Source of the DNA: Adlercreutzia sp. ZJ176
Lineage (GTDB): Bacteria > Actinomycetota > Coriobacteriia > Coriobacteriales > Eggerthellaceae
DNA: 64,000 nucleotides
Assembly (NCBI RefSeq): GCF_011038975.1
Contig: NZ_JAAKEC010000007.1
Location: 1 to 64,000 of the forward strand
Reading direction: 5' to 3'
The translations under genes and the position numbers were made by a program. The notes under the pieces are model-generated. The model was not told the origin of the DNA and searched no databases. It saw only the letters and a program-made list of their open reading frames with translations. Below, in pieces: positions 31,782-62,257 of the stretch (within the stretch, counting starts at the first letter, position 1; each line of letters begins with the position of its first letter).

Positions 31782-31866
31782 GCGGAAAGGTCGGGAGGTT
31801 CGGAAGGTTTCTAGGCCTTGGAAGAATGACAAAGTCGGAAAGGTTTAGGGACCTCATGGATCTCAT

Positions 31867-31990
31867 GTCATCCTGAGCGGAGCGCCCGCAGGGCGCGGAG
31901 TCGAAGGATCTGGTTGCGAGCGTATTGCGCATGCAGGCGCGCTGTGCCCGGGGCCAGATCCTTCGACTCGCTTCGCTCGCTCAGGATGAC
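31867..31990. repeat. Dispersed long palindromic repeat, copy 1
   Basis: A 124-bp element bounded by GTCATCCTGAGCGG and its inverse CTCAGGATGAC, with TCGAAGGATCTGG and CCAGATCCTTCGA inside, folds into one long imperfect hairpin. Related copies lie at 39076-39199 and 46409-46532, with half copies at 46244-46290 and 62014-62060. Between here and rsmJ (31991-32168) is degenerate repeat-like DNA, including GAGGGATTGGCTCCCCA and a variant of it near 32124. Confidence 0.85.
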
Positions 31991-32168
31991 ACGAGGGATT
32001 GGCTCCCCATGCTGGCACGAGGGAAACAGGCTTCGCGCACTGACATGAAGACCGCCCCCCGTGTTGTCATGTCTCCCACGCCGACATAAAGACCGACTCC
32101 CCACACTGACATAGCCCCATGATGACGCGAGGGATAGGCTCCCCACGCCTGAGGCGGCTGCGATGGAG

Positions 32169-32936: not shown

Positions 32937-35123
32937 CTACTTCACCAGCTTGGAGTCCTCGACCTTCCCAATATACCACCCCATGAACGCCGCGAGCGGC
33001 TTGCGCAGCACGAGCCCGATGAACGCCGCGGGTATGAGGAACAGCGCGAGCTCGCCGAGCTGCACCCAGTAGTCGCTGCCGTAGGTGCCGAACATCGCCG
33101 CGCGCATGGCGCCCACCACGTGCGTCGCCGGGAGGAACCGGCTCAGCGCCTGCACGAACCCGGGCAGGATCTGCAACGGGAACGACCCGCCGCAGCCCGT
33201 CACCTGGATGATGAGCAGCAGCACCGCCATGGCCTTGCCGAGGTTGGCGAACGCCGACACGAGCGCGTAGACGATCGCAGTGAACACGAGCCCCGCCACC
33301 CAGAAGCACAGCAGGTAGAGCCACGGATGCGCCACCTGCACCTGCAGGAAGAACAGGTTGCCCAAGCCCAGAAGCGTGCTCTGCAGAAGCGAGATGAACG
33401 CCATCACGCCGAAGCGGCCCAGGAGCAGCTCGCGCGGCTTCGGGTTGTCGAGGTTGGCCTGCGCGCGCGGCGACACTGTGGGCTTCACCACCACGAGGAT
33501 GAGCAACGCCCCGATGAACAGGGCCAACGTGGCGTAGAGCGGCGACATGGCCGAGCCGAAGCTCTCGGAGGGGAACACGGCCACGCGTTCGACGCCCACC
33601 GGCGCCGCGAGCGCGCGGGAGAGCCCCTGCACGTCGGAGCCGAGAACCGAGCGCAGCGCCTCGGCGTCACCCGACGCCAGCGCCGCGTCGATGGCGTCGG
33701 CCATCCCGCGCAGCCGGCCCGCCAGCTCGCCGAGGTCTGCTGCGGTGGCGTCGAGCTTGCCCGCGCCGTCGCTGATCGCATCCGCCACCGACCCGGCCGA
33801 ACCCGCCAGGCTCGCGTCGATGGCGTCGAGCTTGCCCTTGCCGTCCTCCACATACCCCGAGAACGCCGTCGCGTCGGCGGCCATATCACTCAGGACGGGG
33901 ACGAGCTTATCGTCGAAGGCGCGCTTCATGTCGGCGACCTTCTGCTCGGCAGACGCCGCGAGCGCCTTCACCTCGTCGCGCTCGGCCTGCACGTCAGCGC
34001 TGCCCGCTTCGAGCTTGTCCGCCGCGCTCGCGAGGCGCGCGCTCATGTCCTCGAGCAGCTCGGCTGTCGCGCGCGCCATGCCGGCAAGGCCCGCGAGCGC
34101 CGGCGCCTGCTCGCCGGGCACCACGCTCGCGAGCGCCTCGAGCTCCGAGGCCGCCTTCTGGTAGAGCGCCGCCTGATCGCCCACGGCGGCCGCCTGGGCG
34201 CGCAAGCGCTCGACGCCTGCGGCCGACTCGCTCGCCGCCGCGTCGAACAGCGCGTCTACCTGCGCCGACACCTCGCCTAAGCCCGACGAGGACGCGTCGA
34301 GCGCGTCCGAGAGGCGCTTCACGGACGCCTCGAGCGCCTCGACGAGGCTCGCCATAGAGGCCGTGTCCTGCGGCAGCGACGCGGCCATGCCCTCGGCCTC
34401 GGCGCGCGCCGACGCCACCAGGTCAGACGAGCTCTGCACGAGCTCGCCCGACGTTGACGCCAACTTCCCGTAGAGGAGCAGCACGCGCGCGGCCTCGTCC
34501 ATCTGAGAGGCCATCGCACGCACGTGGCCTGAGAGCTCGCCGATGCGCCCGGCAAGGTCGGCATCGTCCGCGTAGGCGGAAAACGCCTCGGCGATGCCGA
34601 GCGCAAGCTCGGAGAGCGTCTCGGCGAACACTTCGTTCACCTGGTACGACACCGAGTCGGCCCCCTTGTCGGTGACCTTCGGCGCAATGGCGTTCTTCTT
34701 CTCGTTGGCGTAGTAGACGATCTTGGCGTGCTGCGCGTCGGCCGCGTAGAACGTGAGCATGTCGCGGCTGAAGCTCGCGGGGATGACCACGGCCGCGTAG
34801 TAGCGGCCCGACCGCGCGCCGTCGACGGCGTCAGCCTCCGAGGTGAAGACCCAGTCGATCTCGTCGTTGGCGCGCAGCGCGCTCACCACCTGCTCGCCCA
34901 CGTTCACGCGCAGAGGCACCAGGTCGCTCTCGTAGCCCTCGTCGACGTTGGCCACGGCCACCTTGAGGTTGCCCGTGTTGCCGAACACGTCCCAACACGC
35001 GATCACGTTGTACCAGGTGAAGATCGACGGCATGACCACGAGCCCCACCACGATGATGATGCTCACCACGTTCGCGAACAGCCGCCTCACATCGCTTCTG
35101 AACAGCGTCCAGATGTTACGCAC
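32937..35123 (-). CDS. YhgE/Pip family membrane protein 2
   Basis: A 728-residue protein of the YhgE/Pip family (ABC-2-like membrane fold). One N-terminal TM helix (VSIIIVVGLVVMPSIFTWYNVIACWDVFGNTG) is followed by a large extracytoplasmic region of about 480 residues rich in Ala and coiled-coil heptads, and then five or so C-terminal TM helices. Relatives include phage-infection protein Pip and the type VII secretion-associated EsaA. The start is taken as GTG 35123, which overlaps the end of the upstream paralogue by 8 nt. GTG 35132 is an alternative. It forms a two-gene operon with the 921-aa paralogue. Confidence 0.85.
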   Translation of the reverse strand: MRNIWTLFRSDVRRLFANVVSIIIVVGLVVMPSIFTWYNVIACWDVFGNTGNLKVAVANVDEGYESDLVPLRVNVGEQVVSALRANDEIDWVFTSEADAVDGARSGRYYAAVVIPASFSRDMLTFYAADAQHAKIVYYANEKKNAIAPKVTDKGADSVSYQVNEVFAETLSELALGIAEAFSAYADDADLAGRIGELSGHVRAMASQMDEAARVLLLYGKLASTSGELVQSSSDLVASARAEAEGMAASLPQDTASMASLVEALEASVKRLSDALDASSSGLGEVSAQVDALFDAAASESAAGVERLRAQAAAVGDQAALYQKAASELEALASVVPGEQAPALAGLAGMARATAELLEDMSARLASAADKLEAGSADVQAERDEVKALAASAEQKVADMKRAFDDKLVPVLSDMAADATAFSGYVEDGKGKLDAIDASLAGSAGSVADAISDGAGKLDATAADLGELAGRLRGMADAIDAALASGDAEALRSVLGSDVQGLSRALAAPVGVERVAVFPSESFGSAMSPLYATLALFIGALLILVVVKPTVSPRAQANLDNPKPRELLLGRFGVMAFISLLQSTLLGLGNLFFLQVQVAHPWLYLLCFWVAGLVFTAIVYALVSAFANLGKAMAVLLLIIQVTGCGGSFPLQILPGFVQALSRFLPATHVVGAMRAAMFGTYGSDYWVQLGELALFLIPAAFIGLVLRKPLAAFMGWYIGKVEDSKLVK

Positions 35124-37881
35124 GCCCCTCACCGCCCTTCGCGCCGGCATCTGCGGCCGCGTTCGGGTCCGCGGCCGGGCCTGGCTTCGCAGCCGCATCC
35201 GCTGGCGGAGCCACGCCCGCACCCTGCACGGCTCCCGCGCCCGCAACCTGCACGGCTCCCGCAGCCGCAACCTGCACGGCACCCGCACCCTGCACGGCTC
35301 CCGCACCCGTGCCCGCGTCCTCCCCCGGGCGCTGCATACAGTTGCGCGACGAGTAGAGCCCCAGCAGGCTCTCCTCGCTCATGTCCTCAAGGCTCATCTG
35401 CCGCTCGAAGCTGTAGCGCATACTCTCCACCACGACTAGGAAGACGAGCAGCGTCGCCAGCGACACGAGGCACGCCGTGAGCAGCACCACCTTCTCCGTC
35501 GGCGTGAGCGCGAACACGAGCATGAGCGTCACCGGGATGGCGACGCCCACCGCCACCGATCCGCGGATGAGGCGCGGGTACCAGCGCATGAAGCTCGCGT
35601 AGCGCCGCGTGATCTCGCGGCGGTACTCCTCCTTGTCGGACAGCGCGCGGACGAGCTGCGAGAAGCGGTACGGGCGCACGGGGACCTCCACATCCTCGCC
35701 GTTGAAGATGCCGCTTTGCCTGACCTGGCGCGCCACCATGTGGTTCACGTTAGCCATAAGCGGGCGGAACACGAGCCCGAGCGCCATGAACGCCGCGAAG
35801 TAGAGCATGAGCATGCCCACGTCGTGCGCGTACTGGCTGCCGTAGAAGCCGCAGATGGCCTCGCGCATAGCGCCGATGCCGTAGGTGAAGGGGAACAGCG
35901 GGTAGACGGCCTGGAAGAAGGCCGAGGTCATCTCGACGGGATACAGGCCCGTCGCGCCCGGGATCTGGGCGAACACTAAGATGATGCAGATGCCCTTGCC
36001 GATGTGCTGCAAGGTGACCGACAGCGCGTAGATGATGCTCAGATACGCGAGCGACGCCATCGCCGCCGCCAGGAAGAGCGCCGGCGGGCTTTCCGCCTGA
36101 ACGCCGAGCGCCAGCACGCCTGCGCAGCAGATGACCGCCTGCAGCACGGCGAGCACGGCGAACAGCGCGAAGCGGCTCAGGTAGCGCTGCGCGAGGGTGA
36201 GGTCGCGGATGCCCTCGGAGTCGACTTCCTGCCTCATGATGACCAGCAGCATGAACGCGCCGATCCAGAACGTCAAGTTCATGAACAGGGGCGCCATAGC
36301 CGAGCCGTAGGCGTTGAGCGGGTAGAGCTGCACGGTCTCCACCTCGGTCGGCGCGCCCATGAAGCTGGCGACCTTGCCCGCGTCGAGGCCGTCCTCGCCG
36401 AAGATCTCGCTGAGCGCGTCAGCGCTGCCGAGCGCCGCCACGTCGGTGCGCACGAGACCGAGCCCCGCCTCGAGGTCCCCGAGCAGGCCGTCGGTGGAGC
36501 CCACGGCCTCGCGCGCGCTCTCGAGCGTGGACGTGAGCTGTCCGAGCACGAGCCCGATCTGGTCTGTGACCACCCGCTCGCCCGAGAGCGCGCCCTCAAG
36601 CGAGGCCGTCGCGGCGGCGAGGCGCGAAAGGCCCGCGCTCACCTCGGGGATGGTCGAGCCGAAGAGCGCGTTCGCATACGCGTCGGCGTCAGCTACGGCG
36701 GCCTGCACGGCCTCGTCGAAGGACCCCGCCGCGTCCGCGACGGCCTGGGAGGCGCCCTCGGCGTCGGCGCTCAGCGCCTCGAGGTCAGCCACGAGCGCGC
36801 GTGCGCGGGCGTTGTCCTCGTCGAGGCGGTCAGCGAGGGATGTGAGCGCGGCCTTGCCCTCGGAGCCCTTGCCGTCCTCGGGCAGCGCGTCGGCGAGCGC
36901 GCGCACGTGGGCGGCGAGCGCCTCGCCCTCGCCCACCACCGCGTTCGCCTGCGCGAGCGCCACGTCCACGCTTGCCGACGCGCCCGCCGCGTTGCCGGCC
37001 ATGTCCCCCACCGCCTTGCTCGCCTGCGCGGACAGGCTCGACACCGCCGAGAGGCTCTCGCCCACCACGGGCAGCGCGTCGGCCGAGAACCCCGCGAGCG
37101 CGTCCTGCATCTGCGCAGCCTGAGCGGACACCCGGGCGAGCGCCGTGGCGGCCAGGTCCATCTCGGCGCGCACGTCAGCGAGCACGCCGCGCGCGTCCTC
37201 CGCCCGCGCAAGCGCGGCGTCGGCGGCACCCGACACGCCGGCGAGCGTCTCGCGCGCCCCGCCGATCACCGCGACGGCCTCGCCGAGCTTGCCGAGCGCC
37301 TGCGAGCGCGACTCGCCAACCGCCGCGCGCGACTCGCCGGCTGCGGCGTCAAGCGCCTCGATCGCCGCGTCGGTCACGGTCGAGACGAACGTGGAGTTGA
37401 TGGCCTCGTCAAGCGTGGTGGCGCCCGTGTCGGTGATCTTGGGCGCCACGGGCCCGAGCTTCTCGTTCACGTAATAGAGGAGGTTCGGCTGGGTGAACTC
37501 CCCCGTGGTGAGGGTGAGCAGATCAGCGGTGAAATCTGAGGGGATCACGAACACCGCGTAGCTCGCCCCCGACTCAAGCTCCGCCATCGCCGTGTCGCGG
37601 TCGACGAATGCCCAGTCCAACTGGTCGTTCTCGCGCAGCTTCTCGACGATCATGTCGCCGACGCGCACTTGTCCGGTCAGCTCGCTCGAGCCTCCGGCGT
37701 CCTCGTTCACCACGTCGACGCGCAGCTGGCTGGTGTTGTCGTAGGGGTTCCAGAAGCCGACGACGTTGTACCACGTGTACACCGACGGCAAGACGAGGAG
37801 GGCCATCACCACCACGAGGGCAGCCGGCGCTTTGACCAGGCGCACGATGTCGCGCCCGAGCACTCGCAACACGTTTCCCAT
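35116..37881 (-). CDS. YhgE/Pip family membrane protein 1, with repeat tail
   Basis: A 921-residue paralogue of the downstream gene with the same plan: an N-terminal TM helix (ALVVVMALLVLPSVYTWYNVVGFWNPYDNTS), a long Ala-rich coiled-coil region, and six or more C-terminal TM helices. An extra cytoplasmic extension follows, ending in a low-complexity tail of repeated AVQGAGA/AVQVAGA units (DNA repeats at about 35215-35320). ATG at 37881 has AAAGGA upstream. Such proteins may scaffold secretion or cell-envelope complexes. Function here is unknown. Confidence 0.85.
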   Translation of the reverse strand: MGNVLRVLGRDIVRLVKAPAALVVVMALLVLPSVYTWYNVVGFWNPYDNTSQLRVDVVNEDAGGSSELTGQVRVGDMIVEKLRENDQLDWAFVDRDTAMAELESGASYAVFVIPSDFTADLLTLTTGEFTQPNLLYYVNEKLGPVAPKITDTGATTLDEAINSTFVSTVTDAAIEALDAAAGESRAAVGESRSQALGKLGEAVAVIGGARETLAGVSGAADAALARAEDARGVLADVRAEMDLAATALARVSAQAAQMQDALAGFSADALPVVGESLSAVSSLSAQASKAVGDMAGNAAGASASVDVALAQANAVVGEGEALAAHVRALADALPEDGKGSEGKAALTSLADRLDEDNARARALVADLEALSADAEGASQAVADAAGSFDEAVQAAVADADAYANALFGSTIPEVSAGLSRLAAATASLEGALSGERVVTDQIGLVLGQLTSTLESAREAVGSTDGLLGDLEAGLGLVRTDVAALGSADALSEIFGEDGLDAGKVASFMGAPTEVETVQLYPLNAYGSAMAPLFMNLTFWIGAFMLLVIMRQEVDSEGIRDLTLAQRYLSRFALFAVLAVLQAVICCAGVLALGVQAESPPALFLAAAMASLAYLSIIYALSVTLQHIGKGICIILVFAQIPGATGLYPVEMTSAFFQAVYPLFPFTYGIGAMREAICGFYGSQYAHDVGMLMLYFAAFMALGLVFRPLMANVNHMVARQVRQSGIFNGEDVEVPVRPYRFSQLVRALSDKEEYRREITRRYASFMRWYPRLIRGSVAVGVAIPVTLMLVFALTPTEKVVLLTACLVSLATLLVFLVVVESMRYSFERQMSLEDMSEESLLGLYSSRNCMQRPGEDAGTGAGAVQGAGAVQVAAAGAVQVAGAGAVQGAGVAPPADAAAKPGPAADPNAAADAGAKGGEGRA

Positions 37882-38424
37882 GCGCAACGGTCCTTTCTCC
37901 CCAACTGTAGAATTACTCGTCGCGCTATTGTATGCCATTTCGGGCTGACGCGTCACGTTCGTCATCATTTCGTGCACTTTACCGCCACATGAGCGCAGCG
38001 CTTCCGTGTGCAGCGCCCCTTCCCGCGCCTAGCCTCGCAAATCGCAGCGCCCCTTCCCGCGAAGTCTCACCAAGCGCGCAACTCGCTTCCCTTGCGCTGA
38101 CAGCGAGTTCGCGCGCACCACGCTTTGCCACTTCGCAGCCTCTCTGTAACTTTGGTTTCGCGCACCCCTGTTCCAAAGTCATTTCCTTATCTTTGGTTTT
38201 CAGAGTGCATTGCTCCCAGGCGCAGGGGTGGCGCGCGCATCTCGATCCCGCCTCTTGGGCCTTCGCAAAAAGCCGGCGCACCAGCCGAGTAAGCAAAGCG
38301 CCCGCAGCTTTCGCAGTCGCAGGGCCACCGAGAAACGAAAGAGCTATGTCATCTACATTGAGGTTTGAGGCTTGGGAGCTTGGGAGCTTGGGAGCCGGGG
38401 ACTTGGGGCTTGGGTGGCCCGAAA
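37882..38424. other. Non-coding region upstream of the YhgE genes
   Basis: About 540 bp without a supported gene. It contains two related stretches (near 38148 and 38198) with CTTTGGTTT and a GCTTGGGA tandem near 38370-38410. I see no promoter that I can place with confidence. Confidence 0.4.
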
Positions 38425-38614
38425 CACCGATAACGCCTCATTCTCATCCACAGCTCGGGAAAGCTGGATGGAAAACGCCCGTTGTCGGTGTTTCGGGCCC
38501 CGAAAATCACCGACAACGCGCCTTTCGCATCCACTTTTTCCGAGAAATCGCCGACAACGGCCTCGTTTCATCCAGAATCACCTGAGGATGGATGGAAAAG
38601 CGTCGTTGTCGGTG
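38425..38614. repeat. Array of five 26-bp repeats at ~41-bp spacing
   Basis: Five copies of a 26-bp unit lie at 38425-38450 (+), 38465-38490 (-), 38508-38533 (+), 38549-38574 (+) and 38589-38614 (-). All share CACCGACAACG (one base changed in copies 1 and 4) at one end and CATCCA at the other, with a variable centre. Start-to-start distances are 40, 43, 41 and 40 bp. Copies 1+2 and 4+5 are inverted and would form long hairpins in RNA. No coding frame explains the conservation. Confidence 0.85.
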
Positions 38615-38640
38615 ACTGGACTGCAAGCAGGGATATAGAC

Positions 38641-38686
38641 GAAAAAGTTCGAACCCGCGAGGATCACCTTCAAGCGGGTTCGAACT
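38641..38686 (-). terminator. Terminator of tRNA-Asn
   Basis: A perfect 13-bp stem (AGTTCGAACCCGC / GCGGGTTCGAACT) is followed on the minus strand by TTTTTCG, 10 bp past the tRNA 3' end. Confidence 0.93.
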
Positions 38687-38695
38687 GATTGTGTA

Positions 38696-38770
38696 TGGCT
38701 CCCCGGGTAGGATTCGAACCTACAACCCTCCGGTTAACAGCCGGATGCTCTGCCGTTGAGCTACCGAGGA
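38696..38770 (-). tRNA. tRNA-Asn (anticodon GUU)
   Basis: A 75-nt gene with acceptor stem TCCTCGG/CCGGGGA, encoded CCA, an anticodon stem-loop TCCGG-CTGTTAA-CCGGA (anticodon GTT), and a T-loop GGTTCGAATCC. All arms fold canonically. Confidence 0.97.
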
Positions 38771-38886
38771 ATGTAGCTGTTGAAGCGCTTACGCCCCAAC
38801 GCGCAAGAAAGAATTATACCGAAACGCGCGCGCTGCGCAAGACCCTATTTTTCCCTTTCGGCGAAAAAATCTCCAGGTTGCGAGGC

Positions 38887-39006
38887 CATGCGGTGCCGCG
38901 CCCTAGGCCGGACCCTTCGGCTCCGCCATGCAGCGTTTCGCCCTGGGCCGGACCCCTCGGCTGCGCCATGCGGTGCCGCGCACGGGGCCGGACCCTTCGG
39001 CTGCGC
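38887..39006. repeat. Three tandem 40-bp repeats
   Basis: Three head-to-tail copies (38887-38926, 38927-38966, 38967-39006), each containing GGCCGGACCC and TCGGCT, differ at a few positions. No gene overlaps them. They lie upstream of dispersed palindrome copy 2. Confidence 0.8.
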
Positions 39007-39075
39007 GCCCTGGGCGAACCCCTCCCTCGTGTCATTCTGAGCGAGAGGCCCCGTCATCTTAGGTGAACCCCCCAT

Positions 39076-39199
39076 GTCATCCTGAGCGAGCGAAGCGAGT
39101 CGAAGGATCTGGCTCCAGGCATGATGCGCCCGCATGCGCATTCCACTTGCGGCCAGATCCTTCGACTCCGCGCCCTGCGGGCGCTCCGCTCAGGATGAC
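39076..39199. repeat. Dispersed long palindromic repeat, copy 2
   Basis: Same family as 31867-31990: GTCATCCTGAGCGAGCGAAG at the left, CTCAGGATGAC at the right, with inner TCGAAGGATCTGG and CCAGATCCTTCGA. A decayed extra left end (GTCATTCTGAGCGAG) lies near 39031 and a right-end fragment near 39221. Confidence 0.85.
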
Positions 39200-39272
39200 A
39201 CACAAGGACAACCCGCTGTCCAGGATGACACGGCACTTCCCTTCCCCGCCGCAAACGCGTTATCCCTGATAG

Positions 39273-39313
39273 AAGCCTCATACCAACGGCATGAGCGGGA
39301 GTTTGCGCTCATG
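39273..39313 (+). promoter_or_regulatory. Upstream element shared with the 48434 operon
   Basis: The sequence AAGCCTCATACCAACG (39273-39288), followed 13 bp later by TTTGCGCTCATG (39302-39313), also occurs at 48180-48223 with 14-bp spacing and TTTGCATACTCATG. Both copies lie upstream of a molybdoenzyme-ferredoxin operon on the plus strand, 210-370 bp before the start codon. A CATGAG-N12-CTCATG inverted repeat is embedded in this copy. The likely ligand is the LuxR regulator encoded between the two operons. This is inference. Confidence 0.5.
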
Positions 39314-46213: not shown

Positions 46214-46243
46214 CACGCGGCCACATGCGCACTCCGCTTGCAA

Positions 46244-46290
46244 CCAGATCCTTCGACTCCGCGCCCTTCGGGCGCTCCGCTCAGGATGAC
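46244..46290. repeat. Dispersed palindromic repeat, right half copy
   Basis: This is a half element: CCAGATCCTTCGACTCC through CTCAGGATGAC. The left half is missing. Confidence 0.75.
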
Positions 46291-46408
46291 ATAAGGGGCG
46301 CGGACGCGATTGTACTCAGGATGACGTAAGAGGAGGCGCGGCGTGACGCTCCGCTCGGATGATAGCGAGGCACGACGTTCCGCTCGAGACGAGAAGAACT
46401 CCCCACGT

Positions 46409-46532
46409 GTCATCCTGAGCGAGCGAAGCGAGTCGAAGGATCCGGCCCCGAGAACGACGCGCCCGCATGCGACACTCAGCCGCAACCAGATCCTTCGACT
46501 CCGCGCCCTTCGGGCGCTCCGCTCAGGACGAC
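46409..46532. repeat. Dispersed long palindromic repeat, copy 3
   Basis: A full-length copy with GTCATCCTGAGCGAGCGAAG at the left and a right end that reads CTCAGGACGAC. It lies just upstream of the LuxR promoter. The gap 46214-46618 is filled by this copy, the half copy at 46244 and the LuxR promoter. Confidence 0.85.
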
Positions 46533-46576
46533 ATAAGGGCGCGAAATCGAGGGGACCCCAGACGCGCGGCCTGCGC

Positions 46577-61916: not shown

Positions 61917-62257
61917 CGCCTTGAGCCCCTTGGGGCAAGATGGCCCCGACTTCTTCGCATCGCTGATCGACCTCGATGCGGTAACCGCACGCGATGGGCG
62001 ATAGCGCATGCAGCCAGATCCTTCGACTACGCGCCCTGCGGGCGCTCCGCTCAGGATGACACAGGGGAGGGCACCCGAGCAGGCGCTCCGCTCAGGACAT
62101 GAGGAAAGCAGCCGCTTACGGCGCTCTTCTCGAGTTGACACGGGTAGGGTGACGCCGCTACGGCGCGCGTATGCACAAAAGGGACACGCGTCAGAGGGCA
62201 CCCGATCAGGCGCTCCTCTCAGAAAACGGAGTGGGGGCGACGTGATTTCGCAGCACG
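61917..62257. repeat. Intergenic region with dispersed repeat half copy
   Basis: It contains a right-half copy of the dispersed palindrome at 62014-62060 (CCAGATCCTTCGACTAC through CTCAGGATGAC) and decayed fragments after it (GCTCCGCTCAGGACATGAGG near 62090). No gene is supported. Confidence 0.7.

Follow-up and report, generated by a model that had tools for sequence, protein, structure and literature searches.

An array of asymmetric bipartite 25-bp sites as the core of a dispersed intergenic element, possibly a non-autonomous mobile one, in Adlercreutzia sp. ZJ176 and four further genomes

MITEs are short, non-coding sequences with inverted ends that are present in many copies. The BIME/REP repeats of enterics and pseudomonads are described as short intergenic sequences that occur in several orientations, lie at gene ends and serve as hot spots for insertion sequences (PMC1525189; PMC3733652), and REPINs with RAYT as within-genome populations of copies in which inverted pairs are the replicative unit (PMC3116915). 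The STAR elements of staphylococci are interspersed intergenic direct repeats that occupy different loci in each species, expand and contract at those loci, and have sequences that are stable and distinct per locus (PMC3532100). Here, we analyze an intergenic array of five sites in the source genome G000 (Adlercreutzia sp. ZJ176; 2.72 Mb in 49 contigs); among the titles listed in literature searches, none describes such a five-unit element.

The array lies in the window, by which we mean the whole 64 kb stretch of DNA analyzed. Scanning the window with the pattern ACCGAYAACG-N5-TT-NN-CATCCA and allowing up to three mismatches gave five matches, every one of them within 38426-38613, where five 25-bp units stand in the orientation + - + + -. 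Shuffled windows (n=100) gave a mean of 0.10 matches and a maximum of 1, and none of the 100 reached five. The five repeats in mixed orientation that an earlier note had read here are thereby borne out, and gene coordinates agree with its placement of them between the YhgE genes and tRNA-Asn. Its near-constant spacing of about 41 bp stands as regular spacing, but the series is fixed and uneven: the units start at 38426, 38465, 38509, 38550 and 38589, giving start-to-start distances of 39, 44, 41 and 39 bp, and the same series recurs in other copies. The features of the region are the following.

38425..38614, + strand: five-unit element (22 copies found in G000, this one included)
38426..38450, + strand: unit 1, pattern match
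38451..38464, + strand: linker 1-2, lowest conservation among the linkers (mean 1.03 bits)
38465..38489, - strand: unit 2, inverted, pattern match
38490..38508, + strand: linker 2-3, longer by 10-11 bp in most and by 21 bp in two of the 30 parsed G158 copies
38509..38533, + strand: unit 3, pattern match
38534..38549, + strand: linker 3-4, the unit 3-4 spacing of 41 being found also in 30/30 parsed G158 copies
38550..38574, + strand: unit 4, pattern match
38575..38588, + strand: linker 4-5, from the alignment
38589..38613, - strand: unit 5, inverted, pattern match
38646..38686, - strand: neighboring perfect 13-bp inverted repeat (loop 15), downstream of tRNA-Asn and with TTTTT after it on the minus strand
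38696..38770, - strand: tRNA-Asn, a neighbor outside the element

The 13-bp inverted repeat is probably the terminator of tRNA-Asn, and the two YhgE/Pip genes left of the array (35116-37863 and 32937-35132) are on the minus strand. Immediately left of the element, a short degenerate tandem motif (GGGAGCTT-like) occupies 38360-38415, and CTCGGAG-type steps resembling it also occur left of some other element copies. A second dispersed repeat (GTCATCCTGAGCGAGCGAAGCGAGTCGAAGGATCT) is present in the window at 31862-31998, 39071-39201, 46217-46542 and 62014-62062, as well as at some other loci, one copy being located in a convergent spacer that is barely alignable with G002.

With a 241-bp query, the element was found at 22 separate places in G000, the other 21 copies matching the window copy at 71-92% identity across the aligned portion. 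The unit pattern (up to three mismatches) matched this genome 57 + 51 = 108 times versus once for a reversed control; among the 100 of these 108 matches listed, all fall in the 22 elements, one of them directly adjoining (C11:88386), and no lone unit was found far from an element. The repeated entity is the whole element, not the single unit. Departures from the full layout comprise a copy on C44 cut down to units 3-5 and one at C33:94723 that is devoid of unit 1 and bears two additional matches resembling a unit, in steps of 31 bp. The 22 elements are on 12 contigs totaling 1.72 Mb and none was found in the remaining ~1.0 Mb (37 contigs), an observation made post hoc. Their orientation relative to GC skew exhibited no bias (12/22 agree).

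Searching relatives with BLAST (60 genomes, G000 included) returned only G000 and G002 as positive. G002 carries the element at 28 places, two of which (C105 and C73) belong to a single element that an insertion sequence has cut in two. A profile using only the sequences of 40 G000/G002 copies added G158 and G161 among 296 genomes, and a second profile, comprising units 2-4 of G000, G002, G158 and G161 and searched against 396 genomes, added G001 (best E 2e-15, and 5.5e-9 for G161); the BLAST result that placed G001 among genomes devoid of the element was therefore wrong. At E <= 0.05, this second profile retrieved 37 of the 396 genomes, 5 of them strong and about 20 expected by chance, and we treat the remaining 32 (E 7e-4 to 0.05) as chance. 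Weak profile matches in G125, G159, G409 and G153 were likewise taken as chance after reading by eye; the one at L332 (G409) contains a different short repeat pair with CACCGACAAAC and CTTGTCGGCACTT. The search of the genome and its relatives that the earlier note had proposed hence yielded copies in five convincing carriers out of 396 genomes (G000, G001, G002, G158 and G161), with 2 to 40 places per genome and a patchy presence, G001 belonging to the same genus and G158 and G161 to other genera. Phage and plasmid records gave no match to the G000, G158 or G001 versions. Viral contigs with a unit amounted to 3, 0 and 1 stretches for these versions, respectively, and on the four stretches the second profile found nothing at E <= 0.1; the listed contig loci with two half-sites 40-43 bp apart were taken as chance from their titles and spread, and none was used.

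The layout is retained to different extents among these genomes. At least 8 places were found in G001 (9 candidates scored), of which six are complete, all spaced 39/44/41/39, one comprises units 1-4, and another has three units. An array of five units (+ - + + -, 39/44/42/39) and an array of four (44/42/39) were found in G161, whose units are not uniform by inspection, reading CCGTCAA in 6/9, CTGTCAA in 2 and CCGACAA in 1. The complete array of this genome (L266, 9945-10136) precedes a LuxR-type regulator gene, whose predicted start is ~75 bp downstream of the array and which adjoins a flavocytochrome-c-like gene. G158 carries a three-unit version at no fewer than 40 places (40 of 51 candidates scored). 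Its best 30 copies are all - + +, with a first spacing of 54 (17 copies), 55 (11) or 65 bp (2), followed by a second spacing of 41 bp in all 30; this first spacing exceeds the unit 2-3 spacing of the five-unit form by about one helical turn, and by two turns in two copies. The three-unit form demonstrates that five units are not needed everywhere. The orientation + - + + - is common to G000, G001, G002 and one G161 copy, and inspection of the cross-genus alignment shows matching units and matching A-rich edges of the linkers that precede units 3 and 4; to judge from these sequences, the versions look like the outcome of common descent with a changed site.

The 40 complete copies of G000 and G002 were aligned, and the unit consensus is RCCGAYAACG-N5-TTTnCATCCA, an asymmetric and bipartite 25-bp sequence that displays no self-complementarity by inspection. 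Information per unit averages 1.84-1.91 bits at positions 2-10, 1.82-2.00 at 20-25 and 0.99-1.21 at 11-15, so that the conserved ends and variable centers of the repeats, claimed beforehand, are recovered as halves of 1.8-2.0 bits and a center of 1.0-1.2. The linkers have means of 1.0-1.5 bits in a 45-row alignment, used also for the partner shuffles and the tree, in which a few cut copies (e.g., L024 and L207) were padded with unrelated flank. The spacing is 39/44/41/40 in 32 of the 40 copies and deviates from this by at most 2 bp in the other 8. Scattered copies without regular spacing had been named as what would speak against the first reading of the array; the copies are scattered, but the five-unit spacing is kept. 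With mixed orientation and conserved linkers, the array does not resemble the direct repeats and unrelated spacers of a CRISPR, and no GTAG/CGTC end tag is kept at unit ends across genomes by inspection, GTAG being present inside G001 units. At five G002 loci (L032, L191, L192, L198 and L203) an extra plus unit or partial unit is located 29 bp outside unit 1, and at L194 of the same genome extra half-sites lie right of unit 5.

The site itself differs between genomes: 196 of the 200 units in the G000/G002 alignment read CCGAY, and 36 of the 37 G001 units read CCTACAA versus CCGAYAA in G000/G002. As nearly all units bear one genome-specific site, and their order and spacing outlast the site change, a trans-acting sequence-specific protein would explain both. 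The protein-binding array that formed one half of the earlier note's proposal thus gains support, at the level of inference, from the shared bipartite motif, the fixed geometry and the G001 site change with geometry kept. The unit 2-3 spacings of 44, 54/55 and 65 bp, where the two 65-bp G158 copies carry one common insertion and count once, differ in steps of ~10.5 bp (0.14-0.24 of a turn modulo 10.5), and the first half-sites of the five units are roughly on one helix face (R 0.76). Random linkers reached this R in 5% of trials, or 4% with free choice of the contact point, and helical phasing of the units, with P about 0.05 against random linkers, is suggestive only.

The other half of that proposal, an intergenic transcript forming a structured RNA with two long hairpins, finds no support in the same alignments, and we regard it as highly improbable. 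Single strands fold far below shuffles (z -8.5 and -8.4 on the two strands), which inverted repeats would give anyway. The pairing of units 1 and 2 slightly exceeds that of shuffled partners (0.790 vs 0.777, P 0.004), and this excess is not enough for a maintained stem; when partners were shuffled among elements, the pairs 2-3, 2-4, 3-5, 4-5 and 1-5 showed about the same pairing as the shuffled ones. RNAalifold returned a covariation term of -0.39, with 1/33 pairs compensated. For the two proposed hairpins across the 40 copies, 83.7% of cells are paired vs 83.5% after shuffling (109/500 shuffles as high), 26 cells changed on both sides vs 21.2 (37/500 as high), and the covariation score is 0.071 vs 0.067 (71/500 as high), partners slid by 3 columns giving 0.077. 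The G001 change, being present in plus and minus units alike, keeps their complementarity and hence cannot, on its own, discriminate between an RNA and a protein explanation. Additionally, two hairpins would leave the conserved direct repeat of units 3 and 4 without a role, a single inverted pair is left in G158, no promoter or terminator pattern was found in 38300-38800 (the terminator scan covering loops of 3-8), and Rfam gave only the tRNA above its gathering score in 37800-39300. Since covariation between paired units is slight or no greater than expected by chance, we read the constraint as one on the DNA sequence, which a bipartite protein-binding site would fit.

The outer units form terminal inverted repeats (units 1 and 5 are inverted, and so are the G158 ends, GTTTTGGCTGG...CCAGCCAAAAC), as would befit a MITE that stems from a classic DDE insertion sequence and is now decayed, fixed and functionless, with a layout due to common descent alone. 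We consider this origin very unlikely: unit-to-unit indels are rare though copies differ by ~20%, the layout outlives the G001 site change, the unit halves are, as partly seen, more constrained than the linkers, and no convincing position pair for a target-site duplication was detected among 38 elements at lengths of 3, 4, 5, 6 and 8.

To place the elements relative to genes, we used a rough gene predictor whose training sequence was the window, and in which tRNA genes were uncounted and the window copy was entered as diverging. None of 47 elements overlaps a predicted protein gene by >40 bp, and one does so by 27 bp. Of the 41 elements with genes on both sides, 18 lie between converging, 9 between diverging and 14 between tandem genes; 18/41 compares with 15/112 convergent control spacers of >=100 bp in both genomes (Fisher P 1e-4), a test whose cases are not fully independent, as G000 and G002 have loci in common, and G000 alone gives 10/20 (P 6e-4). 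Flanking matches identified at least 8 loci occupied in both genomes, namely the window, L009, L018, L021, L022, L023, L024 (whose second flank is 3 kb away) and L026:4391, leaving out L015/L196 and L019/L201 (neighboring spacers), L010/L197 (not established) and L013/L206 (inverted). Convergent-end enrichment, these common loci and the retention of geometry while the site sequence changed are what a host architectural or regulatory array would produce, in which a resident DNA-binding protein would use dispersed sites at gene ends for anchoring or insulation, BIME-like as in enterics, the copies being kept by selection and homogenized by gene conversion. We regard this explanation as somewhat unlikely, given the range of 2 to 40 places per genome, the patchy distribution over 5 convincing carriers of 396 and the apparently different location of the G001 elements. 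Seven G001 stretches matching G000 sites contain no element (L218, L223, L224, L225 with both flanks, L226, L227 and L229 with one flank), and the short flanks of 8 G001 elements gave no clear match to G000/G002 element loci, the weak matches near such loci being limited to L326 with L022/L202 and with L205.

At the loci common to G000 and G002, the counterpart ranked, among 25 G002 copies, 6 for the window, 5 for L009, 9 for L018, 13 for L021, 19 for L022, 2 for L023, 6 for L024 and 1 for L026, the exception being this last one, a member of a divergent subfamily whose counterpart L208 is still its closest match. In the tree, copies group by species and not by locus (7 label changes vs 15.3 when shuffled, 0/500 as low), except for G000 L018 and L019, which are found among G002 copies. 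Outside the element, the fraction alignable between G000 and G002 was 0.02, 0.03, 0.28 and 0.93 in four spacers with an element; 23 spacers without one have a mean of 0.87, and five of them align poorly (0.07-0.79), two of these being convergent. At L025, G002 retains only GAACACCGACAACGGCC, half of unit 1, which is a deletion scar. Elements thus seem to appear, vanish and become homogenized on the species scale. At the common loci of G000 and G002 they persist and look replaced or homogenized in situ; gene conversion acting on a fixed element accounts for this as well as transposition does.

The elements are also targets of other sequences. Across the G002 genome, three right ends of one insertion sequence were found, each of them within an element (in units 3, 1 and 2), along with two left ends among the fetched loci; both two-ended cases have 8-bp duplications (CGACAACG at unit 3 and TATTTTCA at unit 1). 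It has inverted ends of ~38 bp (loci L206, L207, L209, L200 and L231); its body is absent from the fetched G002 sequence and none was found in G000. In G158, two contigs (L297 and L298, bases 1-75) begin with a shared stretch of some 72 bp that joins two elements at one and the same linker position, probably a second insertion sequence targeting elements. REP sequences are known insertion-sequence targets (PMC1525189). This trait, together with a short, extragenic, gene-end-enriched sequence in mixed orientation, would suit an ordinary REP/BIME, or a REPIN moved by a RAYT-type tyrosine transposase, an explanation that we nonetheless hold to be improbable, as the unit is not palindromic and the little or no compensatory change departs from REPINs as described (PMC3116915). 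Additionally, Y1_Tnp (PF01797) was found in 0/3 of G000, G001 and G002 and was positive in 5/14 control genomes; with no Y1 transposase in these three genomes, REPIN/RAYT as known does not fit.

We propose with about even confidence that this is a dispersed intergenic element of ~190 bp, organized on an array of asymmetric bipartite 25-bp sites, and probably a non-autonomous mobile one. The copies, their geometry, the genome-specific site consensus, the intergenic position, the clustering by species and an insertion sequence with three right ends in elements are observed; the scatter, the variable copy number and the apparently different G001 loci favor mobility over host use. Standing against this reading, no target-site duplication was detected among 38 elements, no version that is longer and autonomous was seen in the sequences examined, no transposase is tied to the element, and the G161 units lack uniformity. 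Mechanistically, one trans-acting protein would contact both halves of each site, its subunits, bound in fixed order and spacing, would assemble into one higher-order complex, and this protein, or one recruited by it, would move or copy the element, which would be a non-autonomous mobile element or the descendant of one. More tentatively, a DNA-binding protein that recognizes a bipartite site of 25 bp might assemble on three- or five-site arrays of fixed geometry, disperse and homogenize them through the genome, and co-evolve with them so that nearly all sites switch specificity together between species. If this is right, the element represents a class of bacterial repeats held by protein-array geometry rather than by hairpin structure, with a co-evolving binder that would be expected in G000, G001, G002, G158 and G161 and whose DNA contacts would differ, most clearly between G001 and G000. 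Clustering by species across loci and the attraction of an insertion sequence are also relevant to how short repeats survive in compact genomes.

Compared with the described systems, the element shares with BIME/REP an extragenic location, several orientations, many copies, a position at gene ends and the attraction of insertion sequences, but it differs in its asymmetric 25-mer, where BIME/REP have a palindrome of 20-40 bp, in its fixed number of units, in the absence of lone units among the G000 matches listed and of a tyrosine transposase in G000, G001 and G002. It resembles REPINs with RAYT in its inverted pairs and within-genome population of copies, and departs from them in its number of units (three or five), in showing little if any compensatory change and in that no RAYT was found in G000-G002. 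Like insertion-sequence MITEs, it is short, non-coding, inverted at its ends and present in many copies; unlike them, it gave no convincing target duplication, no matching full-length element was seen in the sequences examined, and its internal units are as conserved as the outer ones. A review of such MITEs is available (PMC10969869). With STAR elements it has in common interspersed intergenic repeats at loci that differ per species; unlike those direct repeats of expanding and contracting loci, the number of units here is nearly fixed, and the copies cluster by species across loci.
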